From positions 1 through 33,541 of the forward strand of contig JAQBZH010000027.1 in assembly GCA_027622005.1 (NCBI GenBank): a stretch of 33,541 bases of DNA, read 5' to 3'. Position 1 is the stretch's first letter, and every line of letters starts with the position of its first letter. Source of the stretch: Bacteroidota bacterium. GTDB taxonomy: Bacteria; Bacteroidota; Rhodothermia; Rhodothermales; UBA10348. The translations under genes were made by a program, and so were the position numbers. The notes beneath the pieces were generated by a model. That model searched no databases, was not told where the DNA came from, and worked only from the letters and a program-made list of their open reading frames with translations. Shown here one piece after another: positions 176-22,553 of this stretch.

Positions 176-586
176 GTGGAACAGCATTTCGGCAGACATA
201 TAGATGAATTGGAGGCAATCGTTTCATTTCTGGATCGAGTTTCAACCGAATTTGGGCTCGATTCAGGTGCAAAATTTGTCTTAAACATGGCCGTTGAGGA
301 ATTGTACACCAATATGGTCAAATACAATGGTGAAGGTGCTGACGATATCTTGATTGGAGTCGAATGTGACCAATCATCGCTTGTAATTCATCTGGTTGAT
401 TTCGACTCAAAACCTTTTGACTATTCAGAGCGAGAAGAGGTGGATATACACGCTTCTCTCCACGATCGCAAGCCCGGAGGGCTGGGAATCCATCTGGTTA
501 AGCGCTTCATGGATGAAGTGAATTATCAGTACAAAGATCGAAAAACCAGTATTAAGCTCGTAAAATTCCTTAAAACCAATGCTTGA
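176..586 (+). CDS. RsbW/SpoIIAB-like anti-sigma serine kinase (HATPase)
   Basis: A 136-residue GHKL ATPase of the anti-sigma serine-kinase type, predicted to be cytoplasmic. The N box is visible as AVEELYTNMVKY (about residues 40-51), a degenerate G1 box as DFDSKPFD (about 81-88), and the G2 box as GGLGIHLVKRFMDEV (about 101-115). In this family the protein binds a sigma factor or another target and phosphorylates a STAS antagonist. The neighbour starting at 579 is such a STAS protein, and the two genes overlap by 8 bases, so translational coupling is likely. The start is GTG at 176, the only early initiator in frame; no strong ribosome site is seen. The G1 box lacks the usual DxGxPFD glycine. 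The real target, the nearby ECF sigma factor or another protein, cannot be told from sequence. Confidence 0.85.
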   Translation: MEQHFGRHIDELEAIVSFLDRVSTEFGLDSGAKFVLNMAVEELYTNMVKYNGEGADDILIGVECDQSSLVIHLVDFDSKPFDYSEREEVDIHASLHDRKPGGLGIHLVKRFMDEVNYQYKDRKTSIKLVKFLKTNA

Positions 587-863
587 GATCGTACAAGATG
601 CCCCTGACTCGATTCGGTTGATTGGACGCCTAGACGCCGTCCAATCCGAGCGAGCATTTGCCGCTTTTGACTTGCTAGAGGGAGACTGTACCGTCCACTT
701 CGAACAGCTAGACTACATTTCGAGCGCCGGATTGAGTGTTTTGCTACACACTCAACAACGTCTGTCCAAAACGGGTGGGTCCATAAAACTTCGAGGACTG
801 AATCCTCATGTGAAGCAGGTATTTGAATACGCGGGGTTCAATACCATTTTTGATATGAGTTGA
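579..863 (+). CDS. STAS-domain anti-sigma factor antagonist (RsbV/SpoIIAA-like)
   Basis: A 94-residue single STAS domain. The loop YISSAGLSVLLH contains the conserved serine pair that the partner kinase phosphorylates in SpoIIAA/RsbV proteins, followed by the expected amphipathic helix. The length is close to that of SpoIIAA. Its ATG lies inside the end of the kinase gene (8-base overlap), so the two form a kinase/antagonist module. In the family model the dephosphorylated antagonist releases the kinase's target. The PP2C phosphatase that resets such switches is not in the window and may lie elsewhere. A 52-base gap separates it from the sigma factor. Confidence 0.88.
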   Translation: MLEIVQDAPDSIRLIGRLDAVQSERAFAAFDLLEGDCTVHFEQLDYISSAGLSVLLHTQQRLSKTGGSIKLRGLNPHVKQVFEYAGFNTIFDMS

Positions 864-901
864 GTTTCGTTTCCAACTTTCTGAATATCCAGTTGTATTT
901 C

Positions 902-908
902 AAGGGAG
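902..908 (+). promoter_or_regulatory. Ribosome binding site of the first ECF sigma gene
   Basis: AAGGGAG lies 7 bases before the ATG at 916, at normal spacing. It is one of the few clear Shine-Dalgarno sites in the window and fixes the start of the sigma gene. Confidence 0.6.
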
Positions 909-915
909 TGAAGTA

Positions 916-1464
916 ATGAGTGATGAACAAGATCGCCGGTTGGTTGATCGAACTCTCGCAGGAGATCGACAAGCATTCGGAGAACTGGTTAAACAGTATC
1001 AGATAGCCGTGTATACCGTGGCCTTTAATGTGCTGCGAAATACTAACGACGCCGAAGATGCAGCCCAATCGGCCTTTTTAAAGGCTTATGAACAATTGGG
1101 TACGTTTAATCATGAATTCAAGTTTTTTAGCTGGCTTTATCGAATCGCAGTTAACGAATCGATAAACGCTCGGAAAAAGAAGCGACCCATTACAGGTTTA
1201 GATGGTCCAGAGCCCGTTTCTTCGGAAAAAGCCGATGCGCTTATTCAAGAAAATGAGCTTGAAGACCAGGTCGATTCGGCACTGATGGATTTGAGCCCAG
1301 AGGACCGAGCGATAATCCTGTTAAGGCATTACCAAGACTTCTCTTATCCAGATATCGCGTATATCATGGATACCACCGAAGGCAAAATTAAGTCACGATT
1401 GTTTACAGCCCGACAGCGACTCAGAGGCATTTTTGAGAAACGGGGCATTACCGCACGAGCATGA
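916..1464 (+). CDS. RNA polymerase ECF-type sigma factor
   Basis: A 182-residue sigma-70 family protein of ECF size. Sigma2 covers about residues 10-80, with the core-binding segment DAEDAAQSAFLKAYEQL and the -10 recognition helix FFSWLYRIAVNESINARKKK. Sigma4 is at about 125-175, with LSPEDRAIILLRHYQDFSY followed by the helix-turn-helix IAYIMDTTEGKIKSRLFTAR. The stop overlaps the ATG of the membrane anti-sigma gene in an ATGA junction (1461-1464), the usual arrangement for an ECF sigma and its inhibitor. It should direct polymerase to a small regulon, perhaps including its own cluster; no target promoter could be assigned. Confidence 0.93.
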   Translation: MSDEQDRRLVDRTLAGDRQAFGELVKQYQIAVYTVAFNVLRNTNDAEDAAQSAFLKAYEQLGTFNHEFKFFSWLYRIAVNESINARKKKRPITGLDGPEPVSSEKADALIQENELEDQVDSALMDLSPEDRAIILLRHYQDFSYPDIAYIMDTTEGKIKSRLFTARQRLRGIFEKRGITARA

Positions 1465-2054
1465 ACGAAGAAGTAAGAGCCTTAATCGAAGGAGAAGTGG
1501 ATGGCGTAAACTCGCCAAGCGAGCGAATTCGGCTGATTGAAATTTGTGCTTCCGACCCTGCTGTTCAATTGGAATTGGACAAATCAATCGAAGTTGCCCA
1601 CCTCCTGCAACATATCGTTGCCAAGGAACCGTCAGCCAATTTTCATCACAAAGTGATGACTTCGCTGCCCCAGCGTCCTTCTTGGGCGCCACGGACTGTA
1701 TCCAGCCCATCTTGGCTGTCCCTTTTTAAACTTCCTCCGAAGCCGTCATTCGTACTTGCATACGGCTTTGCAGCAGGTTCGGTAATTATGTTTGCTTTGA
1801 TCTTTAGTTTTGCAGACCCTTCATACTCTGGTGAAACCAGCGGAATTTCTGGAACTATGGCGCCATCTTCTTCGACTATTTTTTCTGAAAATGTTGTAGG
1901 CGTAGACGGCGAAGACATAACAGTGACTGGGCAATTAGTCCAAGACCAGGTTATCGTCAGCATTTCTCCCGTTTTGAATGCGGAATCTACCATCGCCATT
2001 AAAATCGAAAACAAAGGATCGGTCGTTTTTGAAAAGGCATTTCAACCTAAGTAA
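1461..2054 (+). CDS. Membrane anti-sigma factor
   Basis: A 197-residue protein with a cytoplasmic N-terminal helical region (about 1-70), one transmembrane helix (about 97-118) and an extracytoplasmic C-terminal domain of about 80 residues rich in Ser/Thr/Gly and beta-prone. This layout and the 4-base overlap with the sigma gene identify it as the cognate membrane anti-sigma factor. The N-terminus resembles ECF anti-sigma domains (ALIEGEVDG) but has a single Cys, so it is not a zinc-binding HC2 type. The next gene encodes a PrsW-type protease; in Bacillus PrsW cuts the anti-sigma factor RsiW. This makes the protein the obvious candidate substrate. The substrate link is inference. Confidence 0.8.
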   Translation: MNEEVRALIEGEVDGVNSPSERIRLIEICASDPAVQLELDKSIEVAHLLQHIVAKEPSANFHHKVMTSLPQRPSWAPRTVSSPSWLSLFKLPPKPSFVLAYGFAAGSVIMFALIFSFADPSYSGETSGISGTMAPSSSTIFSENVVGVDGEDITVTGQLVQDQVIVSISPVLNAESTIAIKIENKGSVVFEKAFQPK

Positions 2055-2092
2055 AAACGAAACTTCGACTTAAACCGACGCTAGTTGTAAAC

Positions 2093-3100
2093 ATGTCCAT
2101 AGTCTTACATGTAGCTGTCAGCTTACTTCCTGTCGCTGTTTTCTTGTCGGCTTTGGTTTTTCTAGACAGCTATAAGCTAGTGCGTCCCAATGCGATAGCG
2201 GGGGCTTTGTTTGCCGGAGTTGTCGCTGCTGGAGCCGCGTATGTGGTAAATGGCTGGATGCTTGATGGATTGGACTTCTCTCGCGATCAATTTTCCCGTT
2301 ACATCGCGCCCGTATCAGAAGAAGCTTTAAAGTCGATTTGGATCGTGTTTTTGATTTGGAGGAACAGAATCGGTTTTACCGTTGATGCAGCAATAACCGG
2401 ATTTGCTATTGGAGCAGGGTTTGCCGTGGTCGAAAACCTGTACTTTTTAAATGCGGTCGATGCCGGCATACAGACGTGGGTAGTTCGTGGTTTTGGAACA
2501 GCTATTATGCACGGTGTCACGACTACCGTTTTTGCAATCCTGATTAAGACCTTCCAGACCGATCAGAAAAAGTTTGCTGGGGTTGCGATTTTTGGAGCAT
2601 TTTTAGCCGCGGTCCTTCTTCATTCTGCGTACAATCACTTTCCATTTCCCCCTTTGGTATCAACCGCCATCCTCGTAATGACTGCTCCTGTCCTAGTCAT
2701 GGTGGTATTCGCCCAAGGAGAAAAGCACACACGAGCCTGGCTAGGAACGGGGTTTGATACGGATCAAGAACTGCTCACTTTGCTGATGAGCGGGAATTTT
2801 TCTGACTCCCGCGTTGGCAGTTACTTGCTCACGTTAAAGGATCACTTTGCTGGAACGATTGTGGCCGATATGTTCTGCCTGATTCGAATAAAGGTGGAGT
2901 TGTCTATTCGAGCAAAAGGGCTACTAATGATGCGAGAGGCCGGATTCGAACCGCCTCCGGATGAATCGATCCAGGCGAAGTTCGCTGAACTTCAGTATCT
3001 AGAAAAGGCGATTGGCAAAACGGGAATGATGGCCATCGAACCCATCCACAAATGGTCAGACAAAGACCTGTGGCAATTGAATATGATTGACCAAGGATAG
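2093..3100 (+). CDS. PrsW-family intramembrane metalloprotease
   Basis: A 335-residue polytopic protein. PrsW-family signature motifs are present: EEALK (residues 76-80), ENLYF (114-118), a membrane His in MHGVTT (His140), and LLHSAYNH (His177, His182). The first about 210 residues form the hydrophobic core, matching the size of Bacillus PrsW. About 125 further residues form a soluble C-terminal extension with no recognised domain. The gene starts 38 bases after the anti-sigma gene, with no other gene between. In Bacillus subtilis PrsW performs site-1 cleavage of RsiW to free SigW. Placement directly after a sigma/anti-sigma pair makes the same role likely here. The gene ends in a short repeat array containing its stop codon. 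Confidence 0.88.
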   Translation: MSIVLHVAVSLLPVAVFLSALVFLDSYKLVRPNAIAGALFAGVVAAGAAYVVNGWMLDGLDFSRDQFSRYIAPVSEEALKSIWIVFLIWRNRIGFTVDAAITGFAIGAGFAVVENLYFLNAVDAGIQTWVVRGFGTAIMHGVTTTVFAILIKTFQTDQKKFAGVAIFGAFLAAVLLHSAYNHFPFPPLVSTAILVMTAPVLVMVVFAQGEKHTRAWLGTGFDTDQELLTLLMSGNFSDSRVGSYLLTLKDHFAGTIVADMFCLIRIKVELSIRAKGLLMMREAGFEPPPDESIQAKFAELQYLEKAIGKTGMMAIEPIHKWSDKDLWQLNMIDQG

Positions 3101-3158: not shown

Positions 3159-3494
3159 TCACATGTTTTTAAGAAGACGATTTTTTCGCTTACGTCGTAA
3201 AGAAGCCCCCATCGTAACGGCCGCGATCATTAATAAAGAGATGATCCAAATCCGTGAGTTAAACTCAGAGGCCTCAGTCGATGCTTTTGAGATCCCGATT
3301 AATACTTCACTACCCGCACCAGCGTCCTTTTTGGCGATCTCAGCCGCGGTAGGGCTGATGGGTGAAGTGTTGGTTGTGATGGATTGAACCATCTTGCCAG
3401 CGTGAGTCGAGTATACCGTCGCCAAATCAAAAGGCTTTATTAAAAGCACTAACAAAAAGGCAATGACGCCAAGTCCGGCAATTACGTTTTTCAT
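3159..3494 (-). CDS. Small two-helix membrane protein of unknown function
   Basis: A 111-residue protein that I do not recognise. It has an N-terminal hydrophobic helix (about residues 4-19), a polar Ser/Thr/Ala-rich middle (about 35-80), a second helix (about 82-98) and a strongly basic tail (RRKRKNRLLK). This predicts two membrane spans with the middle outside and both ends in the cytoplasm, or a cleaved signal plus a C-terminal anchor. It follows the SCO gene on the same strand after a 160-base gap with two palindromes, so it may have its own promoter. An open frame on the other strand exists but lacks such a coherent design. A link to nitrite reduction is only by position. Confidence 0.6.
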   Translation of the reverse strand: MKNVIAGLGVIAFLLVLLIKPFDLATVYSTHAGKMVQSITTNTSPISPTAAEIAKKDAGAGSEVLIGISKASTEASEFNSRIWIISLLMIAAVTMGASLRRKRKNRLLKNM

Positions 3495-3626
3495 TGAACC
3501 GTCTCAGATGGATGAACATCGCGGAAAAAACTCCGTCAGAAAGCATTGTACAAAATTGTTTTCAAAATTGCGAAGAACTAATGAAGGGGCTCGAATAAAT
3601 TACAATCGTAGCAGCGAAAAGTTGGA

Positions 3627-3655: not shown

Positions 3656-4255
3656 CTATTTCGCGTTTTCCAATAGTTCTTGGACGGCGCGGACGCTTTC
3701 AGCCGTCAAGTCGACAGCTATCCCGTTCTGTTGATGTACAATGACCCCTTCCTCGTTCAGAATCGTGATGATGTTGGAGTGCGCGAATTCACCATCCGGC
3801 ATTTTCTGATATCCGACGCCAAGCAAGGCTGCGATTTCGAGGATATCGTCGGGAGCGCCGGTTAAAAGATTCCAAGCGCTTTCTTCGAGGCCCATTTTTT
3901 CGGAATAAGCCGCCAATGTTGGCGGACTGTCTCGTTCGGGATCGATAGAAATGAGAACAAGCCCCACTTTGCCACCCGCTTGGCGCTCGATGTCCTTCAT
4001 GGCCGCTACGATTCTCGGACAGGACATTTCGCACGACGTATAGGTCATCGCCACGATCTGAATCCGACCAGCCAAGGCCTCCAAGGTCACTTCCGCGCCT
4101 GTTTGGTTGATCCACGTCGATTCAACTTGATAAATCGAATACTCACCCGCTAGCGGTGTATCCGATTCCAAGACCATCGGAGTTTCTACGTGTTCATGCG
4201 TGGGCTCGGTACACGAAGTTAGTAAAAAGGTCAAAATCACGATAAAACAGCGCAT
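3656..4255 (-). CDS. SCO1/SenC-family copper chaperone lipoprotein
   Basis: A 199-residue thioredoxin-fold protein. The chosen ATG (4255) gives a lipoprotein signal MRCFIVILTFLLTSC with the lipid-carrying Cys at residue 15; it lies one base from the stop of the upstream nirV-like gene. An in-frame start at 4309 would add 18 residues before the signal and is unlikely. The copper ligands CEMSC (Cys75, Cys79) and a distal His (about 159, in FAHSN) are present, as is the DPERDSP loop. SCO proteins deliver copper or reduce thiols for copper-centre assembly, classically CuA of cytochrome oxidase. Here its position after NirK suggests maturation of the reductase's copper sites in the periplasm. Confidence 0.9.
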   Translation of the reverse strand: MRCFIVILTFLLTSCTEPTHEHVETPMVLESDTPLAGEYSIYQVESTWINQTGAEVTLEALAGRIQIVAMTYTSCEMSCPRIVAAMKDIERQAGGKVGLVLISIDPERDSPPTLAAYSEKMGLEESAWNLLTGAPDDILEIAALLGVGYQKMPDGEFAHSNIITILNEEGVIVHQQNGIAVDLTAESVRAVQELLENAK

Positions 4256-4256
4256 A

Positions 4257-5075
4257 CTACATCGATCTAACGGTTCTGAACCCAAGGTTCGCCCCAGAGT
4301 ACGAAGCATTCACGCTGCCTCGAAAAGCAAATCGCATAAATGCGGCATAGTCTGTGAAATCAGACGCTCCAACAACGCCGCTTCCGCAAAACAGTTTGCG
4401 TTCAAGGTTCGCGTCAGCTCTCGATTCACCCGTGACTAAGGCAGAATTGAAGTTCAAAACCCATTCCCACACCAATCCGTGAAGGTCCCGAACGCCCCAA
4501 TAATTGGGCGAACTCTGCCCAACGTCTGGTAAAGGTTTGGGCGTGGGCTGGTTGGTTAGAATGAGGACCCGTTTTTCGAATCCAGGTTCATCCTTTCCGC
4601 GTGCCGACCGGGTGCCCGCTCCGGCCACGTATTCCCATTCCGCCACGGTCGGTAGTCTATTCCCTTTCCATTTAGCGTATGATTTGGCGGCAAACCACGA
4701 AACGTTCGTAACAGGCTCATTTGGGCCTAGTTTTCCGAGGTTCACATCGCCTGCCCAGTTGGCCAGATAGGTTGATTCGGCAAACAAAGGCGATATTTTG
4801 GAGCGCCGCCACTTTGGGTTTTGCGTGACGAAAGTCAAGAATTCAGCGTTGGTAACCGGATTTTCGTCTATGAAAAATGAGGGGACATCGACTCCGTCAA
4901 ATTTACCGCCGTTATCATATAGAGCCTTGTAAACACCAGACCCAACGAGCACCATTCCTTTGGGAACTACCGTTCTGGCCTTTTGTCGAGCAAAAAGGGA
5001 TGCTGACGGCAAAGCCGTCAGCATCCCTATCATCACCCACATCCCAATACGAGCTATGTGAACCGGGGGCGTCAA
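4257..5075 (-). CDS. nirV: NirV-like FGE-sulfatase-fold protein
   Basis: A 272-residue exported protein with an N-terminal hydrophobic signal (about residues 8-29, ending near SLFARQ). The formylglycine-generating-enzyme fold follows: MVLVGSGVY, FFIDENPVTNAEFLTF, PVTNVSWFAAKSYAKWKGNRLPTVAEWEY, NYWGVRDLHGLVWEWV and a terminal SGANLGFRTVRS. The gene is directly downstream of nirK with no spacer, the position of nirV in known nirK clusters. The region that carries the paired catalytic cysteines in true FGE enzymes reads AFMRFAFRGSVN here, with no Cys, so sulfatase-activating chemistry is not expected. NirV function is not established; a role in NirK maturation or electron delivery is inferred from context. 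Confidence 0.82.
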   Translation of the reverse strand: MTPPVHIARIGMWVMIGMLTALPSASLFARQKARTVVPKGMVLVGSGVYKALYDNGGKFDGVDVPSFFIDENPVTNAEFLTFVTQNPKWRRSKISPLFAESTYLANWAGDVNLGKLGPNEPVTNVSWFAAKSYAKWKGNRLPTVAEWEYVAGAGTRSARGKDEPGFEKRVLILTNQPTPKPLPDVGQSSPNYWGVRDLHGLVWEWVLNFNSALVTGESRADANLERKLFCGSGVVGASDFTDYAAFMRFAFRGSVNASYSGANLGFRTVRSM

Positions 5076-6500
5076 TTAATGGCCTGCCCTCACATTAGCT
5101 ACTTGACTTGGAGTCATTTCCGTTCCCTTGTTACCAAAGGAGTTCATGACGTACGTCAATACGTTGGCCACCTGTTCGTCCGAAAGCTTAACGCCGGGCA
5201 TAACCCCGTTGTAAGCAACGCCGTTGACTTCAATTGGACCTGACAACCCGTTAATTACGGCACCGGCCGCGCGGGCTGGGTCTGACATCAAGAAGTCAGA
5301 GCCTGCCAGTGGAGGAAATACGCCAGGGATTCCCTGCCCTGCTGCCTGGTGACAGGCTGCGCAGTTGGCTGCAAAAATGCGACCACCTTCGGCAATCCGC
5401 TCATCCATCGTTTTGGCCACAAATGCGTTTGGTGTACTGCCACTCAGACCTTGAATTCCACCACCTTCAGGCAAATACACGCTCTCCGCCTGGAGCCCCG
5501 AATAGATCTCTGGAACAGCATCCCCGGTAACCGTCAACATGGCCAAAGCGCCTTTGTTGAACGCTCGGAAAATCGAGTGATCTACGATGATAAAGGTGCC
5601 TGGAACATCAACCGTAAATTCCACAATGGACGATCCACCGGCAGGCACCAGCGTGGTCTGCACGTTCTTGTTTTGGACGGATCCACCTTCGGTGTTGACC
5701 AAGTCGAATATTTCGCCGATAACGTGAAATGAAGAAACCAGATTGGGGCCACCGTTTCCTATAAAAAGACGAATTTTGTCTCCGACTTTGGCGGTAAGGG
5801 CTTTGTCCCCAGTTGTGCTACCCACTGATCCATTAAATACAACGTAATCAGGTGTTTCAAGGATGGCTTTGCCCATATCAAACGGTTGTAGACCTGCTTC
5901 TCCATAAGCACCATGAGTGTAAAACTCACTCTGCATAACATAGTATTCCTGGTCGACGGGAGGCAGACCTTCTTTGGGCTCAACCAAAATCAACCCATAC
6001 ATCCCGTTGGCGATATGCATTCCAACTGGTGCCGTGGCGCAGTGGTAGACATACAATCCAGGATTGAGCGCCGCAAATGAGAATACGGTCCCTTTTCCGG
6101 GAGCAGTAAAGGAAGAAGCAGCTCCACCGCCAGGACCCGTAACTGCATGTAGGTCAATGTTATGTGGCATTTTGGAATCGGGGTGATTGTTCAGGTGAAA
6201 TTCCACCTGATCGCCTTCACGTACGCGAATAAATTTGCCAGGGACTTCACCCCCGAAGGTCCAAAACGTGTAATCGACGCCGTCTGCCAAGCGCCGCACG
6301 ACTTCAGTCGTTTCCAACTCAATAATAACTTTTGTTGGGTAATTGCGCGTAATTGGGCTAGGAACGGCGGGCGCATGAGTTAAAATGGCCTGTTCTTCTC
6401 CTTTTAACGTTTCAGACTGACAGCCTGGAAAAACGAAAAGAATCAACACTGTTGTCAGTGTTGCGAGACTATACTTGAAAGAGCCGAAAAAGTGGGTCAT
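5076..6500 (-). CDS. nirK: Copper nitrite reductase NirK with C-terminal cytochrome c domain
   Basis: A 474-residue periplasmic lipoprotein from the ATG at 6500, which places a lipobox before Cys27 (ILFVFPGC). A start at 6644 would add 48 non-signal residues. Two cupredoxin domains carry the full ligand set. Type 1 copper: His113, Cys154, His162, Met167. Type 2 copper: His118, His153, His308. Catalytic pair: Asp116 and His259. The last about 100 residues form a class I cytochrome c with haem motif CAACH (380-384) and a likely axial Met434. It reduces nitrite to nitric oxide; the fused haem domain probably receives electrons directly. The nirV-like and SCO genes follow immediately. I saw no FNR/NnrR-type TTGAT-N4-ATCAA box in the 196 bases upstream. 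Confidence 0.95.
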
Positions 6501-6696
6501 GATTTCGTCACAATATTTCTTGAAGCAATTGGTTGTTTGCAGGGTGCGAGGAGCCTTGCGTTCTACGGTCGATAAGACAACCAAAAAGTAACCAGACAGT
6601 AAAGCCTTTAATGAAATATTATCCCCTACCTGAATGGGAGACAAATCCCTCTAAGGTTGTGGGGGAAACCCTTATGGCATTGGGTGAATCGAGCGA

Positions 6697-15928: not shown

Positions 15929-15959
15929 AATTGTTCGAATTAACAATATCTGAACAATT
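15929..15959. promoter_or_regulatory. Clustered AACAAT half-sites upstream of the second ECF sigma gene
   Basis: AATTGTTC (15929-15936) and GAACAATT (15952-15959) are perfect 8-bp inverted arms, and an extra AACAAT (15942-15947) pairs with ATTGTT (15930-15935). The two AACAAT copies are 11 bp apart, one helical turn. The element lies 41-71 bases before the chosen start at 16000, where an operator is expected. Confidence 0.5.
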
Positions 15960-15999
15960 AAAAACGTTACTGTGGCCAAAGGTCACTGTAACGGACAAG

Positions 16000-16776
16000 A
16001 TGTCAGGACTACTAATCATCAATTCCGATCAGCTGCTACGATATACAGACGGGGTGGATCCCGCAGATTACCTAATTACTATGATTGACACCGAAACCGC
16101 AGGAAAGCTCAAGAAGCGTACGCTCACGGTGAAGGCGTCGGAATTTGGATTGATTGGTAACATCAATCCGAACAACCGGCATTTTGATGCACTCAGTCAA
16201 ATGAGTGACGAGGACCTCATGTCCCAGTTCCAAATGGGAACGGTTGAGGCTTTTGACATTTTGGTAAGCCGGTACAAAGATCCTCTTACCAACTACATTT
16301 ATCGTTTTCTAGGTGATATGAAGGAGTGCGAAGACCTCCTTCAAGAAACGTTTCTACGAGTTTACCGAAACAGGCATTCGTATCGCAGAATTGCCAAGTA
16401 CTCGACGTGGTTATACACCATTGCGGGTAACCTTGCACGATCTGAATACCGTAAACGCAAGCGTCGGCGTCTGTACTCTCTTCAGTCCGTTAATCGGGAC
16501 GATGAAGAGTACGAAGTCGAGATTCCAGACGAAACCTTTAGCCCGGATAAACACACCGAGTCTACCATTCAGGACTTCTTCATTCAGGAAGCGCTGCGTC
16601 AGATTCCAGAAGAGTTCAGGGAGGTTGTCGTTCTACGAGATGTGCAGCAGCTGGCCTACGAAGAAATCGCGGACATTACGGGTCTGCCTATGGGAACGGT
16701 AAAAAGCCGGATTAACCGGGGTCGTACGAAACTTCAGAGTTTGCTCAAGGAAGTGTACTCGCCGCTAAGCGACTAA
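16000..16776 (+). CDS. RNA polymerase ECF-type sigma factor with N-terminal extension
   Basis: A 258-residue sigma-70 family protein. The ECF core starts near MSDEDLMSQFQMG (16201, about residue 68) with sigma2 (ECEDLLQETFLRVYRN, YSTWLYTIAGNLARSEYRKRKRR) and sigma4 (LRQIPEEFREVVVLRDVQQL, YEEIADITGLPMGTVKSRINRGRTKL). About 67 residues before the core (SGLLIINSDQLLRY through IGNINPNNRHFD) are unusual. I chose the ATG at 16000 because the further TTG at 15931 lies within a set of inverted repeats; an ATG at 16201 would remove the extension. A strong terminator follows. The likely anti-sigma gene is 257 bases further on. Confidence 0.88.
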   Translation: MSGLLIINSDQLLRYTDGVDPADYLITMIDTETAGKLKKRTLTVKASEFGLIGNINPNNRHFDALSQMSDEDLMSQFQMGTVEAFDILVSRYKDPLTNYIYRFLGDMKECEDLLQETFLRVYRNRHSYRRIAKYSTWLYTIAGNLARSEYRKRKRRRLYSLQSVNRDDEEYEVEIPDETFSPDKHTESTIQDFFIQEALRQIPEEFREVVVLRDVQQLAYEEIADITGLPMGTVKSRINRGRTKLQSLLKEVYSPLSD

Positions 16777-17032: not shown

Positions 17033-17656
17033 ATGCCAGAAAGCTACTATTCTGATTATTCGGATCATTCGGACGAGCAGCTCGACGAGCTTCTTTGCGA
17101 ATACGTCGATGGAACTATGGACCCATCAGTTCGAGCTGCTTTTGAGGAGTACCTCGCAGCGAATCCTGAATTGGCCCAACATGCTCGTTGCCTGAGACAG
17201 ACTCGAACGCTGTTATGTTCGTACGGGTGTCGACATACAAAGGAGTTATCCCTGCAGGACCAAATAAAGCGACGGGTTGCCGGAGAGTTGTTTCGTAAAG
17301 ACCGTTCCGAAGCCGTTTTTGTTCAGCGCTTAGGAAGAGCCGCTATGTTAACTTCAAGCGTTAGTATGGTGCTGATTTTGGGAATGACGATTGGGCTTAC
17401 GGCCGTACGTCAGGTTCGTTTAAACGAGCCGACGGAGACAACCGGGAGCGAGACAGAAGATTCCATGACGATGCTCAAGGACGCCTATGCTCATTCAGCT
17501 TCACTTCCTTTGGAATGGAATCAGGACTTGATTAAATGGTCGCTTTTAGGGCCATCCAGAATCTTACCAGAAATCGACCTGGTCCCTATCGGATGGCGCG
17601 CCGCCACGGTGGACTCACTTCATCGCTCTAGTTTCAGGCTCGTTTCTACGCCGTAA
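17033..17656 (+). CDS. Membrane anti-sigma factor with zinc-finger-like N-terminus
   Basis: A 207-residue protein. Its N-terminal part (about 14-70) has the anti-sigma pattern LLCEYVDGTMDPSVRAAFEEYL and His50, Cys53, Cys62, Cys66, a loose version of the zinc-binding HC2 domain whose normal spacing is H-x3-C-x2-C. One transmembrane helix follows (about 103-125), then an extracytoplasmic tail of about 80 residues. It is the probable inhibitor of the ECF sigma factor encoded at 16000-16776. Unlike the first pair in this window, the two genes are not coupled: a strong terminator lies between. The 185 bases after the terminator hold no gene I can support; a bulged inverted repeat CTCAA-T-CAC/GTG-TTGAG lies at 16984-17002. 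Confidence 0.72.
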   Translation: MPESYYSDYSDHSDEQLDELLCEYVDGTMDPSVRAAFEEYLAANPELAQHARCLRQTRTLLCSYGCRHTKELSLQDQIKRRVAGELFRKDRSEAVFVQRLGRAAMLTSSVSMVLILGMTIGLTAVRQVRLNEPTETTGSETEDSMTMLKDAYAHSASLPLEWNQDLIKWSLLGPSRILPEIDLVPIGWRAATVDSLHRSSFRLVSTP

Positions 17657-17724: not shown

Positions 17725-20064
17725 ATGAAACGATCCCTATTTCTGGCTGTCCTTTTTCTATCTGGAATCCCATCATTTGGCCAATATGCGCTCCAATTCG
17801 GAGCCGCCACCGCAGCTGAGGAAGGCCGAATTTACGTGGGAGAGGGGCGAAACCTCATTCAGAATGGTTCCCTTTTCTCTTTCGAACAGGATGCCAATGG
17901 TCAATGGCAAATGGGCAAGCCCATCCAAGCTTCTGATTCCAAAAATGGAGGAAACGGATTTGGACGATCGGTCGCTTTATCGGGAAATACATTAGTTGTA
18001 GGCGCTCCTCTTACCAACTCCGTCTATGTGTTCGAGCGAACCGAGCAGGGTGAATGGGTTGAAACGGCCATTTTGCGGAACGGTGCTGAAGGATTAGGTA
18101 CCAAAGTTGACTCCGACGGTGCCCATATTCTAGCCGCTTCTACCGGTGGCCGAGATGGGATATCGGCCGTTTATTCCTGGAGCAAATCGGGTTCTACCTG
18201 GATTCCAGGCGCTGAATTAGTGACTTCTTCTGGAGAAGGAAGAACAGGCTGGGGAAACGCGTTGTCTTTGGCAGGTGGTTACGCGGCTGTAGGTTCACCT
18301 TTTGTAAATGGGAGCCGCGGAATGGTAGAGATATTTACGTATTCGAATGGACTTTGGAATGGCGCGGGAGCATTGGACTTTCCGGACTCTCGGGACGGCG
18401 ATGCATTTGGATCTGCCCTACTTATGGTTGGTGATCATTTGGTCGTTGGAATGCCGGGGCGTGATGTTCGAAAAGGCGGAGCTGCAATTTTCGATCGGGA
18501 CGATTCGGGGAAATATGGGTTCGATTTAAAACTCGAGCCTTTTGATTCGAAAGGAAACGAGCAATTTGGAACTGCCCTTGCCTTCGATGGAGCGGCGCTT
18601 TGGGTAGGAGCCCCCGGATATGGAGCTCAAAATGGTGCCGTTTATCAATTCGATATTAACCAGGTAACCATGCGAATGGGAGGAACGCGGCTGCTACAAC
18701 CCTTCAATCTGCAGTATCGAAGCGGTTTTGGGGGTTCACTATCCGTTGCCGGGAAAACCGCCGTGGTCGGGTCACAAGGACATGATAATTTTGAAGGAGC
18801 CGCATTTTCCTTCTCGTTGACCTCATCCGGATGGATGGGTCAGAATATTTTGTATAGCGATTCGGGTGTATTTACTTCGGTTACCGGAGATGCCGTCACC
18901 TGCGACGATCTCGATGCAGGTGGTTTCCCGTGCGAAGACGTCGATATGTTGTCCTTTCTTTCGCGATCAGACGTTGGTGCTGACCGAGGTATTCAAATGA
19001 ACGACGTTTGGGGTTGGACCGATCCGGAAACGGATATCGAATACGCCATTATTGGACGAACGGATGGAACCTCATTCGTTAGCCTGGCCGATCCGTCGAA
19101 CCCGATCTTTCTGGGTGATTTACCCTATACCGCTTCTGGACATCGCAGTCTACATCGCGATATGAAAGTGTATAAAAACTATGCTTACATCGTGGCCGAT
19201 GGCGCCGGGGCGCACCATATGCAGATTTTCGACCTGACTCAGCTCCGAGACGTTAAAAATGCACCGGCGGTTTTTAAAGAGACGGGTATCTACAAAGGGA
19301 TTTACAGTTCGCATAATCTCATTATCAATGAGGACAGTGGTTTCATATATGCGGTCGGAAGCGATTCTGGGGGAGAAAGTTGCGGAGGTGCACTCCACAT
19401 GATCGATTTGGCTGACCCGCTCGTGCCGGTTTTCGCCGGCTGTTTCAATGAACCGCGAACCGGAAGGGGAGGCTCCGGGGCGACGCATGATGCCCAATGC
19501 GTGAATTACCACGGCCCGGATGCCGATTATTCTGGACGGGAAATCTGCTTGAGTTCAAACGGAACCGCGCTATCCATTGCTGACGTCACGGATAAGAGTA
19601 ATCCCAAGTCTATATCCATCGCCGACTATCCGAGTGTAGCCTACGCACACCAAGGCTGGCTTACCGAGGATCAGCGCTTTTTCTATTTGAATGATGAAGG
19701 GGATGAATCGTCGGAATTGGTGGACGCCACTCGAACCATCATTTTCGATTTGACCGATTTGGATGAACCGGTGTTGTCTGGATTTTACATGGCCGATAAC
19801 AGCGCGATTGACCACAACCTGTACGTCAAAGGGAATTTGATGTATCAAACGAACTATCTGGCTGGTCTACGAATACTGGATATTACTGACCCGGAACATC
19901 CCGTAGAAGTGGCCTCATTTGACACCGTTCCGTATGGTCCGAATGACAATTCTCCGGTGTTGGGTGCCTGGAGCAACTATCCATACTTCAAAAGCGGGGT
20001 CATTGTGGTTACTTCCGGGCGCGAGGGTGTGTTCTTTCTAAAGAAAAAGGTGGTGGATATTTAA
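17725..20064 (+). CDS. Exported FG-GAP-like / choice-of-anchor B double propeller protein
   Basis: A 779-residue protein with a signal peptide (MKRSLFLAVLFLSGIPSFG, then Q). Residues about 25-385 contain at least six FG-GAP-like repeats, each with a GFG/QFG turn followed by a VVGAP/AVGSP strand (for example GFGRSVALSGNTLVVGAP and QFGTALAFDGAALWVGAP). The rest (about 400-779) matches choice-of-anchor B proteins with LVIVD-type repeats (FVSLADPSNPIFLGDL, LRILDITDPEHPVEVASF). Conserved polar sites shared with the next gene are Asp479, His530, THDAQC (His588), HQGW (His642) and DHNLY (His697), plus paired Cys. No C-terminal sorting domain or anchor is visible: it ends at VVDI after the last strand. 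It is probably secreted or periplasmic; ligand and activity are unknown. Confidence 0.88.
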   Translation: MKRSLFLAVLFLSGIPSFGQYALQFGAATAAEEGRIYVGEGRNLIQNGSLFSFEQDANGQWQMGKPIQASDSKNGGNGFGRSVALSGNTLVVGAPLTNSVYVFERTEQGEWVETAILRNGAEGLGTKVDSDGAHILAASTGGRDGISAVYSWSKSGSTWIPGAELVTSSGEGRTGWGNALSLAGGYAAVGSPFVNGSRGMVEIFTYSNGLWNGAGALDFPDSRDGDAFGSALLMVGDHLVVGMPGRDVRKGGAAIFDRDDSGKYGFDLKLEPFDSKGNEQFGTALAFDGAALWVGAPGYGAQNGAVYQFDINQVTMRMGGTRLLQPFNLQYRSGFGGSLSVAGKTAVVGSQGHDNFEGAAFSFSLTSSGWMGQNILYSDSGVFTSVTGDAVTCDDLDAGGFPCEDVDMLSFLSRSDVGADRGIQMNDVWGWTDPETDIEYAIIGRTDGTSFVSLADPSNPIFLGDLPYTASGHRSLHRDMKVYKNYAYIVADGAGAHHMQIFDLTQLRDVKNAPAVFKETGIYKGIYSSHNLIINEDSGFIYAVGSDSGGESCGGALHMIDLADPLVPVFAGCFNEPRTGRGGSGATHDAQCVNYHGPDADYSGREICLSSNGTALSIADVTDKSNPKSISIADYPSVAYAHQGWLTEDQRFFYLNDEGDESSELVDATRTIIFDLTDLDEPVLSGFYMADNSAIDHNLYVKGNLMYQTNYLAGLRILDITDPEHPVEVASFDTVPYGPNDNSPVLGAWSNYPYFKSGVIVVTSGREGVFFLKKKVVDI

Positions 20065-20068
20065 GATC

Positions 20069-20116
20069 ATGCGAACCGTTCTGGTAACTGGCTTTGGAGG
20101 TTCATTCATAGATTAA
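20069..20116 (+). other. 15-codon open frame resembling a Rossmann N-terminus
   Basis: An ATG four bases after the preceding stop opens MRTVLVTGFGGSFID and then stops. The TGFGGSFI segment looks like the nucleotide-binding start of NAD-dependent epimerases (VLVTGxxGFIG). It may be a remnant of a deleted gene or chance; no continuation is seen in other frames before 20205. Confidence 0.2.
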
Positions 20117-20204
20117 AAAGTGTCCGGGGATCATTCTTTCGTCCCGAATATTCCTGTTTATTAAACCTGATTTCATCGATCACTTCGTTTCTTGTGGGTT
20201 CACT

Positions 20205-22553
20205 ATGTACCTAATTCTTCTCGTTTCAAGTATTCTTTCCTTGGGGACTTCTCATCGTAGTGAACCAACTTCGATCGTTCGAGATGGGTACGGCACATCG
20301 ATCATCATGGTTGGGTCCGACATCTTAGTGTCCGAAGTAACGGGCTTTAGCACACCGGGGATGATTCATGTCCTAAGGGAAAATGATCGAGGTTCATGGG
20401 TAGTAGCACAATCGATTACATCGAAGGATGCCCAAGTCGGAGATCGATTTGGAACGCAGATGGCCTACTCAGATGGACATTTGGTGGTCAGCAGTCCCGG
20501 AGCCCTCGGCGGATTGGGAGCGGTTTACGTGTTTAGCAAGAATGTAGACGGTTTATGGGAGCAGTCCGGGCGTATTACTCCAAACAACGGCATTAATGAT
20601 GGGTTTGGGGCCTCCATTGCCATTTCGGGAGATTTGGTTGCCATTGGGGTACCCGAAGCGAATGCGAAAGCGGGACAAGTTTTGTTGTTTTCAGCTTCTC
20701 TTGATTGGGGATTGGTGACGTCGCTCAGCGGACCGACTGAAAGTGGGGCCGAATTTGGGCGCAGTCTTGCGGCGGGAGGAGGCTTGCTCGCCGTTGGATC
20801 GCCGGGGTATGCATCTAGCAAAGGGCGAGTCGACTTTTTTAGTTTAGGATCGGGACACGGGTCGGTCGGATCCATTGACGCCGATGCGGGGGAAGAAGAG
20901 CAAAGATTGGGAGGATCTATTTTCTTGTTTGATGGCAAGTTATATGCCGCCAATCCCAGGGCGAAACGAGGCCTTGGAATGGTATCTGTTTATGAAAATG
21001 CAAGAGGATCTTGGACGAAGAAATCCGACTTGACGATGCCATCCGAAGCTACCGGAACCGGTTTTTTCGGGGCATCGGTCACCCATACGGGAAACGAAAT
21101 ATGGGTCTCGGCACCGTTGGCTGACAGTTTTTCTGGGGCCGTATATCGATTCGACAATCGGTCTTATAAGCTCTTATCTGTGATCTCCAACAGTATTAAA
21201 GGCGGTCGTACACAATTTGGTAATTCGGTTTCGGTTGCAGGTGGTGTGGCCGCCGTAGGAATGCCCGGAAACGATTATGGATTGGGCTCGGCGGTCATCT
21301 ACAAGTTGGGAGATAACGGCAATTGGAACGAAGTTGCGACCTACAATCGGCCGGTGCCGGATTTACCCGCCGTTTCGGGTGGCGAAGTCGAATGTGAAGA
21401 CGGAAAGGCCAGCGGATATGCCTGCCAAAACGTGGATTTAGTGTCATTTATTCCACTAAGGGACCTGCACATGAATAGAGGCGTCCGTCTAAATGACGTC
21501 TGGGGGTGGACAGACGAAGAAACAGGGAGGGAATACGGCATTATTGGCCACATGGAGGCAGCCGTTTTTGTTGACGTAACTAATGTCAATCAACCCGTGG
21601 TTCTGGGCGAACTGCCCCGTACGCCGGGCTCTCCGGGTTCCACATGGCGCGACATGAAGGTTTTTAAAGATCACGCATTTATAGTCGCAGACGGTGCAGG
21701 TCAACACGGAATGCAGATATTTGACCTCCATCGTCTTCGGAATTGGTCGGGCAAATTTGAAATTTATGCGCCGGACGTGTTGTACACGAACATTGCCAGT
21801 GCTCATAATATTGTGATCAACGAAGCTACCGGATTCGCCTACACAGTTGGTAACAGTTCGGGTGGAGAAACGTGCGGGGGAGCTCTCCATATGATTGATA
21901 TCAACGATCCCATTCATCCCGTATTTAAGGGTTGTTTTAATGACCCCAAAACCGGAGGACAGGGGTCAGGAGCCACGCACGATGCCCAGTGCGTGACGTA
22001 TTCGGGGCCTGACGCTGACCACGTGGGTAAAGAGATTTGCGTGGGAGCCAACGGAACGGCCATTAGTGTGGCCGATGTGTCCGACAAGCAAAACCCCATC
22101 GCCATCAGTCAGGGGACTTACCCCAACTCGGCGTACGTGCACCAAGGATGGTTTACGGAAGATCACCGATATTTTTATCAAAACGACGAGGGCGACGAAA
22201 CGGGTGGGCTAACAGATAGAACTCGAACCATGATTTGGGACTTGACGGATCTGGATGAACCTGAAATGATAGCCGAGTACTTCGGAGACAGTAATTCAAC
22301 CGATCACAACTTGTATGTCAAGGGCGATTTCATGTACCAGACCAATAATGCGAGTGGATTTCGGGTCATTGACATTCGAAATCGTTCAAACCCGGTTGAG
22401 GTTGGGTTTTTCGACACGACGCCAGATGGAAAAAATGAGGCTGGATTCGATGGTACGTGGAGTAGCTATCCGTATTTCAAGTCCGGTGCGATTCTAGTGA
22501 CGTCCAGGCGGGAGGGCCTCTTCATTGTTCGTAAAAAGGAGCTTGATCTCTAG
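20205..22553 (+). CDS. Exported FG-GAP-like / choice-of-anchor B double propeller protein (paralog)
   Basis: A 782-residue paralog of the preceding gene with the same two-part layout: a signal-like N-terminus (MYLILLVSSILSLGTS), FG-GAP-like repeats to about residue 390 (GFGASIAISGDLVAIGVP, EFGRSLAAGGGLLAVGSP, QFGNSVSVAGGVAAVGMP) and a choice-of-anchor B half. The C-terminal halves are much more alike than the N-terminal halves, with near-identical blocks such as CGGALHMID, GATHDAQCV, HQGW-TED, DHNLYVKG and YPYFKSG. This indicates tandem duplication followed by faster change in the N-terminal propeller. It ends at KKELDL without a sorting tag. A 140-base gap separates the genes, so each may have its own promoter. 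Confidence 0.88.
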   Translation: MYLILLVSSILSLGTSHRSEPTSIVRDGYGTSIIMVGSDILVSEVTGFSTPGMIHVLRENDRGSWVVAQSITSKDAQVGDRFGTQMAYSDGHLVVSSPGALGGLGAVYVFSKNVDGLWEQSGRITPNNGINDGFGASIAISGDLVAIGVPEANAKAGQVLLFSASLDWGLVTSLSGPTESGAEFGRSLAAGGGLLAVGSPGYASSKGRVDFFSLGSGHGSVGSIDADAGEEEQRLGGSIFLFDGKLYAANPRAKRGLGMVSVYENARGSWTKKSDLTMPSEATGTGFFGASVTHTGNEIWVSAPLADSFSGAVYRFDNRSYKLLSVISNSIKGGRTQFGNSVSVAGGVAAVGMPGNDYGLGSAVIYKLGDNGNWNEVATYNRPVPDLPAVSGGEVECEDGKASGYACQNVDLVSFIPLRDLHMNRGVRLNDVWGWTDEETGREYGIIGHMEAAVFVDVTNVNQPVVLGELPRTPGSPGSTWRDMKVFKDHAFIVADGAGQHGMQIFDLHRLRNWSGKFEIYAPDVLYTNIASAHNIVINEATGFAYTVGNSSGGETCGGALHMIDINDPIHPVFKGCFNDPKTGGQGSGATHDAQCVTYSGPDADHVGKEICVGANGTAISVADVSDKQNPIAISQGTYPNSAYVHQGWFTEDHRYFYQNDEGDETGGLTDRTRTMIWDLTDLDEPEMIAEYFGDSNSTDHNLYVKGDFMYQTNNASGFRVIDIRNRSNPVEVGFFDTTPDGKNEAGFDGTWSSYPYFKSGAILVTSRREGLFIVRKKELDL

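Follow-up and report, generated by a model that had tools for sequence, protein, structure and literature searches.

A reduced form of a multi-phylum operon combining partner-switch proteins, an ECF sigma factor and a PrsW protease in a Rhodothermales genome

Contig JAQBZH010000027.1 (assembly GCA_027622005.1), 33,541 nucleotides from a Bacteroidota bacterium of the order Rhodothermales, is called the window here. At positions 176-3100 its plus strand encodes an RsbW-like kinase, a STAS protein, an extracytoplasmic function (ECF) sigma factor, a single-pass anti-sigma factor and the protease PrsW. Judged from gene content and order, this cluster is a reduced form of an operon spread over several phyla, and the lineage of the window lacks two genes of that operon, named X1 and X2 here. 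The initial annotation, which had described the five genes, is confirmed, and the finding is larger than the one made there. In the best explanation as a whole, which we hold with as much doubt as confidence, the operon would serve an envelope response, with an anti-sigma factor cut by PrsW and a partner switch as second input.

Results and discussion

The five genes of the window

The initial annotation had assigned the five genes to their families and placed them on one strand with overlaps or short gaps, and both profile matches and gene calls agree with it (Table 1). The kinase and STAS genes overlap by 8 bp and the ecf and anti-sigma genes by 4 bp; the other two junctions have gaps of 52 and 38 bp. 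The ECF sigma factor contains only regions 2 and 4 and is co-encoded with the membrane anti-sigma factor. Of the five assignments, that of the anti-sigma factor is the least secure. The putative anti-sigma factor has no Pfam match and two weak NCBIfam anti-sigma matches (E ~1e-3); position, topology and its N-terminal domain, which is continuous with X1 in relatives and resembles the domain fused to X1 in L076 and other loci, complete the basis of the assignment.

The initial picture needs amending, as PrsW carries an extra C-terminal domain and most relatives have two more genes between the anti-sigma gene and prsW. PrsW matches Pfam PF13367 at 74.8 bits (cut-off 23.5) and the NCBIfam equivalog NF033739 at 26.9 bits (cut-off 225, not reached), which places it in the same superfamily but outside that equivalog. 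Residues E76, E77, E114, H140 and H177 are invariant in 44 sequences, and the conserved, membrane-embedded glutamate pair and the histidines are presumably catalytic, as in Bacillus subtilis PrsW. The C-terminal domain is helical and conserved; searching the PDB for folds similar to the PrsW model yielded no match below E 0.001. Within the phylum of the window, PrsW proteins with this domain usually stand beside X2 and ecf, while 30 PrsW proteins without it have none of the X2 or ecf genes within 1.5 kb.

Table 1. Features of the cluster and its downstream flank in the window
Feature	Position	Strand	Description
Kinase	176..586	+	RsbW/SpoIIAB-like serine kinase; HATPase_c_2, E 7e-18
STAS protein	579..863	+	Single-domain, anti-sigma-antagonist type; STAS_2, E 1e-11
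Predicted ECF promoter	873..900	+	CCAACTT-N14-TGTANTT upstream of ecf; -35-like and -10-like elements at fixed spacing
ECF sigma factor	916..1464	+	Sigma-70 regions 2 and 4, E 3e-15 and 5e-13
Anti-sigma factor (putative)	1461..2054	+	Single-pass: short N-terminal cytosolic domain, one membrane helix, periplasmic part
SGTM motif of anti-sigma factor	1848..1859	+	Juxtamembrane, residues 130-133; candidate processing site
PrsW protease	2093..3100	+	PrsW-protease, E 9e-21; intramembrane glutamic-type; domain at residues ~34-202, C-terminal domain ~208-335
111-residue protein	3159..3494	-	Two hydrophobic segments; convergent with prsW; AGKM instead of GT motif
Second ECF promoter match	3598..3625	-	Upstream of the 3159-3494 gene

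Conservation within the family and across phyla

Among 41 related genomes, PrsW was found in 17, the kinase in 16 and the ECF sigma factor in 12. All 12 genomes with the ECF sigma factor also hold the kinase and PrsW, and 23 of the 41 hold none of the three; the kinase/STAS pair is therefore not found mostly apart from the sigma factor and PrsW genes, the distribution that had been named as contradicting the initial annotation. The five-gene form occurs in seven loci (the window, L027, L028, L029, L036, L038 and L040), and in L031, L032, L037 and L039 X1 and X2 are added between the anti-sigma gene and prsW. The gene order recurs unbroken in 10 other loci of the same family and order, and it is kept across phyla. 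Loci L033-L035, L128 and L129 are consistent with the cluster but interrupted by contig ends, and in L030, L041, L042 and L127 the equivalent place next to rpoD holds a partial or deleted version. Pairwise distances of kinase, STAS protein, ECF sigma factor and PrsW correlate at 0.77-0.90, values uncorrected for the shared species tree. The gene order is far beyond what chance would explain.

The window spans an entire contig, one of 96 in a 2.79 Mb genome, and sequence 5' of base 1 is cut off. In close relatives an rpoD-type gene lies upstream of the kinase gene, with a hairpin and a T-run in between; the window contig starts with a T-run. The partial versions (L041:7978-8908, L042:7978-8818, L127:8982-9518 and L030:3708-5594) could reflect ongoing gene loss or assembly gaps in metagenome-assembled genomes. 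In L041 and L042 the kinase/STAS genes are joined to the PrsW C-terminus; a domain fusion was considered and dropped in favour of deletion remnants, whose junctions differ.

For the wider comparison, a PrsW alignment was scanned against 84,980 genomes, which gave 381 relatives, and 80 loci (1.04 Mb) were read. By their record titles, the relatives include Rhodothermales, Balneolales, Ignavibacteriales, KSB1, Krumholzibacteriota, Latescibacterota, gemmatimonads, Betaproteobacteria and Gammaproteobacteria. The full operon order is (GAF-SpoIIE phosphatase)-kinase-STAS-ECF-anti-sigma-X1-X2-PrsW, and it recurs in Rhodothermia, Balneolales, Ignavibacteria, KSB1, Krumholzibacteriota, Latescibacterota and Beta/Gammaproteobacteria. 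The Gemmatimonad loci are short or have no upstream sequence, and there only X2-PrsW was seen (L067, L101 and L103). Among the 32 loci whose sequence extends 8.5 kb or more upstream of prsW, 29 have the kinase ahead of it; the others are L114, with STAS and ecf and no kinase match, and L062 and L124, with PrsW alone.

X1 has a single membrane helix at its N-terminus, and the sequence after it is of low complexity or made of repeats. It is continuous with the anti-sigma N-terminal domain in Balneolales, Ignavibacteria and some Betaproteobacteria; in L094 and L112 a candidate promoter lies inside this anti-sigma-X1 frame, and X1 may also be made separately there. X2 has H121, E122, H125 and E175 (HExxH and a downstream Glu) invariant in 40 proteins. 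The X2 model (mean predicted local distance difference test score 87.8) combines a helical domain with a TolB-matching propeller and a ~16-stranded barrel, and X2 is predicted to be an HExxH peptidase with a TolB-like propeller and an outer-membrane barrel, the peptidase fold being assigned from a sub-threshold Pfam match and the HExxH motif. No X2 orthologue was found in the genome of the window.

A candidate promoter and a shared motif

The STAS-ecf spacer contains TTTCCAACTTT in all four closest loci. The pattern CCAACTT-N14-TGTA was matched 34 times in the 1.04 Mb of the 80 loci, against 0 matches for the reversed pattern; 20 matches precede ecf, 13 precede X1 or anti-sigma-X1, and one precedes a gene named Y here. 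The pattern is a conserved candidate ECF promoter, which would make ecf autoregulated. No CCAACTT was found upstream of the kinase in 37 loci. The regions upstream of the kinase gene align poorly and show no common promoter. The single transcript proposed in the initial annotation is only partly borne out, as a sigma-driven promoter probably stands between the STAS gene and ecf. With NTT appended, the pattern gave 14 matches against 1 control match in 14 cluster genomes. Three of its sites are in the genome of the window: window 873, window 3625 (minus strand) and C94:7384. The site at 3625 has a degenerate counterpart in L041 and none in L027-L029.

In the anti-sigma factor, X1 and the distant, presumably sigma-controlled Y, the motif G[TSA][MIVL] is located ~9-17 residues past the membrane helix. 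It is found in 23 of 30 separate anti-sigma factors (shuffling expects 3.1), in 28 of 33 X1 proteins (expected 1.5) and in 10 of 10 continuous anti-sigma-X1 frames (expected 0.6), and it may be a PrsW processing site. Because the lineage of the window has no X2 and yet keeps the motif, PrsW would be its likeliest reader. Residue-by-residue identity of the motif between the anti-sigma factor and X1 or Y within each genome was also considered and dropped, as GSM appears in both in G013 and not so in other genomes.

The C94 site lies ~60 bp upstream of Y, a protein of 547 amino acids with an N-terminal membrane helix, the sequence LSGTM and a type IX secretion tail. Near-full-length homologues in G002, G004, G013 and G018 contain SGTM, SGSM or AGTM, so that the motif is present in five of five Y proteins. 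Their candidate promoters score 23.9 (G002), 16.3 (G004), 18.6 (G013) and 13.1 (G018, weak), with background up to ~12; over the five genes, scores are clearly above background in three and weaker in two. In G004, a genome without the cluster, Y contains a stop codon, and G003 retains only the first 72 Y residues. Three more promoter-pattern matches in G002 (C2, C28 and C171) precede genes without the motif and were kept as uncertain. Just downstream of Y, L135:6066-8465 encodes an FG-GAP/LVIVD protein similar to a protein pair at 17725-22553 of the window.

Kinase, STAS protein and phosphatase

In 36 relatives, the kinase N-box residues E42 and N46 and G-box residues G101, G102 and G104 are invariant, with D75 at 94%, and S48, S49 and G51 of the STAS protein are invariant as well. 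We take S49 to be the phosphoserine by comparison with SpoIIAA and RsbV. Many loci encode a SpoIIE-type phosphatase next to the kinase or directly after prsW, and in L059, L112 and L121 phosphatase and kinase are fused into one protein; the genome of the window has six SpoIIE genes, none of them inside the window. A second STAS protein is encoded immediately 3' of prsW in four loci (L082:6496-6849, L098:7972-8340, L104:9105-9446 and L108:4073-4414).

Proposed mechanism and competing explanations

The proposed mechanism joins what is read from sequence, namely gene content, conservation, candidate promoter, motif, active-site residues and loss patterns, to cleavage, cut position and partner-switch target, which we infer. 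The ECF sigma factor would be held by the single-pass anti-sigma factor. PrsW would cut the latter on the periplasmic side near G[TSA][MIVL] (SGTM in the window), which would start its destruction and free the sigma factor. The freed sigma factor would transcribe its own operon, ecf-anti-sigma-prsW in the window and X1-X2-PrsW too in relatives, and would also drive other single-pass motif proteins such as the N-terminally anchored Y. PrsW would release these motif proteins as well, acting as switch and processing protease at once. The kinase and STAS protein, with the phosphatase of relatives, would form a second, cytosolic input, whose most likely target would be PrsW (perhaps its conserved C-terminal domain) or the anti-sigma factor/X1, rather than an ECF sigma factor bound by the kinase.

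Natural variants bear on this second input. The clusters of L059 and L121 lack the ECF and anti-sigma genes but retain STAS, X1, X2, PrsW and a kinase fused to the phosphatase; in these genomes, the best ECF match is 34% identical or absent. L187 and L196 contain ecf, anti-sigma, X1, X2 and prsW without an adjacent kinase/STAS pair. Because both kinds of variant exist, kinase/STAS and ECF appear to be two separable inputs onto one membrane module. The initial annotation had suggested that phosphorylation and proteolysis both gate one sigma factor; the linkage is real, but this formulation is too narrow in view of the four loci. Its other suggestion, that the kinase/STAS pair regulates the protease or another target, is favoured by them: the partner switch would act on PrsW or its substrates through a putative protein contact, and not via a kinase holding the ECF sigma factor.

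Several points weigh against the proposed mechanism. Kinase and STAS are missing beside the L187 and L196 clusters, and PrsW proteins with the C-terminal domain occur without any cluster in L062, L124, L198 and L200; for both reasons, this domain is not strictly tied to the kinase. The loci were selected through PrsW itself, and the genomes are mostly metagenome-assembled. The motif comparison covered the anti-sigma factors of these loci, X1 and Y, whereas the known PrsW acts on RsiW, and G[TSA][MIVL] could be a structural or binding site instead of a cut site.

A more far-reaching version is tentative, and we would sooner doubt it than adopt it. A dedicated PrsW with the C-terminal domain, switched by GAF-phosphatase, kinase and STAS, would cut proteins that carry a type II single-pass helix and G[TSA][MIVL] (anti-sigma factor, X1 and Y); anti-sigma cleavage would scale expression of the whole set, and X1/X2 would provide a link to the outer membrane.

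Among the alternatives, it is unlikely that the kinase and STAS protein are neighbours only, serving an unrelated target while ECF, anti-sigma factor, X1, X2 and PrsW form an ordinary envelope-stress pathway. The kinase/STAS genes have no ECF promoter, L187 and L196 carry the sigma/X1/X2/PrsW set alone, and PrsW is cluster-free in L198 and L200, all of which speaks for this reading. Co-conservation over several phyla and co-loss within the family argue otherwise, as do the correlated distances (with the shared species tree uncorrected) and the retention of kinase/STAS with X1-X2-PrsW where ECF was lost.

Ranked after it, and improbable in our estimate, is a kinase that acts as a second anti-sigma factor for ECF, released by dephosphorylated STAS in parallel to the membrane anti-sigma factor cut by PrsW; such a double lock corresponds to the main model of the initial annotation. 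In its favour, ecf is immediately preceded by the kinase and STAS genes in almost every cluster locus, the residues for catalysis and phosphorylation are conserved, and the Bordetella btr locus also combines partner-switch genes with an ECF gene (PMC7498569). However, L059 and L121 retain kinase/STAS without a close ECF in the genome, and an anti-sigma gene or anti-sigma-X1 frame already follows ecf in nearly every locus. Moreover, RsbW and SpoIIAB bind sigma factors partly through region 3, which is missing from ECF sigma factors.

Least probable is a reading in which stress activates X2, an outer-membrane HExxH peptidase, to make the main site-1 cut of the full operon in X1/anti-sigma before PrsW acts, with the window lineage reduced to PrsW alone; the invariant residues and modelled architecture of X2 would suit this role, but the lineage without an X2 orthologue still has SGTM in the anti-sigma factor and Y, and the peptidase fold has the sub-threshold basis given above.

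Relation to known systems

In B. subtilis, PrsW has a site-1 role on RsiW (PMC3498285). The proposed pathway resembles the sigma-W/RsiW/PrsW/RasP system in pairing an ECF sigma factor with a membrane anti-sigma factor that PrsW is proposed to cut first. It differs in that prsW is inside the sigma operon and has the extra C-terminal domain, in the partner-switch pair, in X1 and X2 of most relatives, and in a motif common to several proposed substrates. With RsbV/RsbW/RsbU and SpoIIAA/SpoIIAB/SpoIIE it shares a HATPase_c_2 kinase, a single-domain STAS protein with a conserved serine and, in relatives, a SpoIIE-type phosphatase; unlike in those systems, no SigB/SigF-type sigma factor is in the operon, and the kinase falls below the RsbW/SpoIIAB equivalog cut-offs (33.7, 29.2 and 16.6 bits against 145, 155 and 135).

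In the Bordetella btr system, BtrU/BtrV/BtrW occur with the ECF sigma factor BtrS and the anti-sigma factor BtrA, and the partner switch is not a simple sigma inhibitor (PMC7498569). Here too, partner-switch proteins and an ECF/anti-sigma pair share one locus, but BtrA is secreted and linked to type III secretion, and the btr gene table holds no PrsW, X1 or X2. In the alphaproteobacterial EcfG/NepR/PhyR system, too, a partner switch controls an ECF sigma factor (PMC8103513); this system uses a sigma-mimic response regulator and no STAS protein, SpoIIAB-like kinase or PrsW. In E. coli RpoE/RseA/DegS/RseP, a membrane anti-sigma factor is cleaved in steps as the readout of envelope stress (PMC8103513), with unrelated proteases and no partner switch.

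The components are each of a known kind; a search of openly licensed papers found no description of this combination or of the motif and promoter set, which are undescribed in the literature searched. If true, the mechanism would be a new coupling of cytosolic phosphorylation to membrane proteolysis, kept over several phyla. To our knowledge, PrsW substrates beyond anti-sigma factors are largely unknown. Testable predictions are provided by the ECF promoter sequence, the target genes and the candidate PrsW recognition motif, and the natural deletion variants, without ECF or without kinase/STAS, separate the two inputs.

Neighbouring genes

The gene at 3159-3494 is conserved beside the cluster within the same family and is a possible sigma target. 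Genes named by eye as SCO1-like, sulfatase-modifying-factor-like and copper nitrite reductase-like (3656-6644, minus strand) adjoin the cluster and are also beside it in L041. Further along the window, a second sigma-70-like gene (15931-16776) is followed by a gene for a 207-residue protein (17033-17656), and by eye the two resemble another ECF/anti-sigma pair. Two large related proteins are encoded in tandem at 17725-22553, the first of which has FG-GAP repeats.

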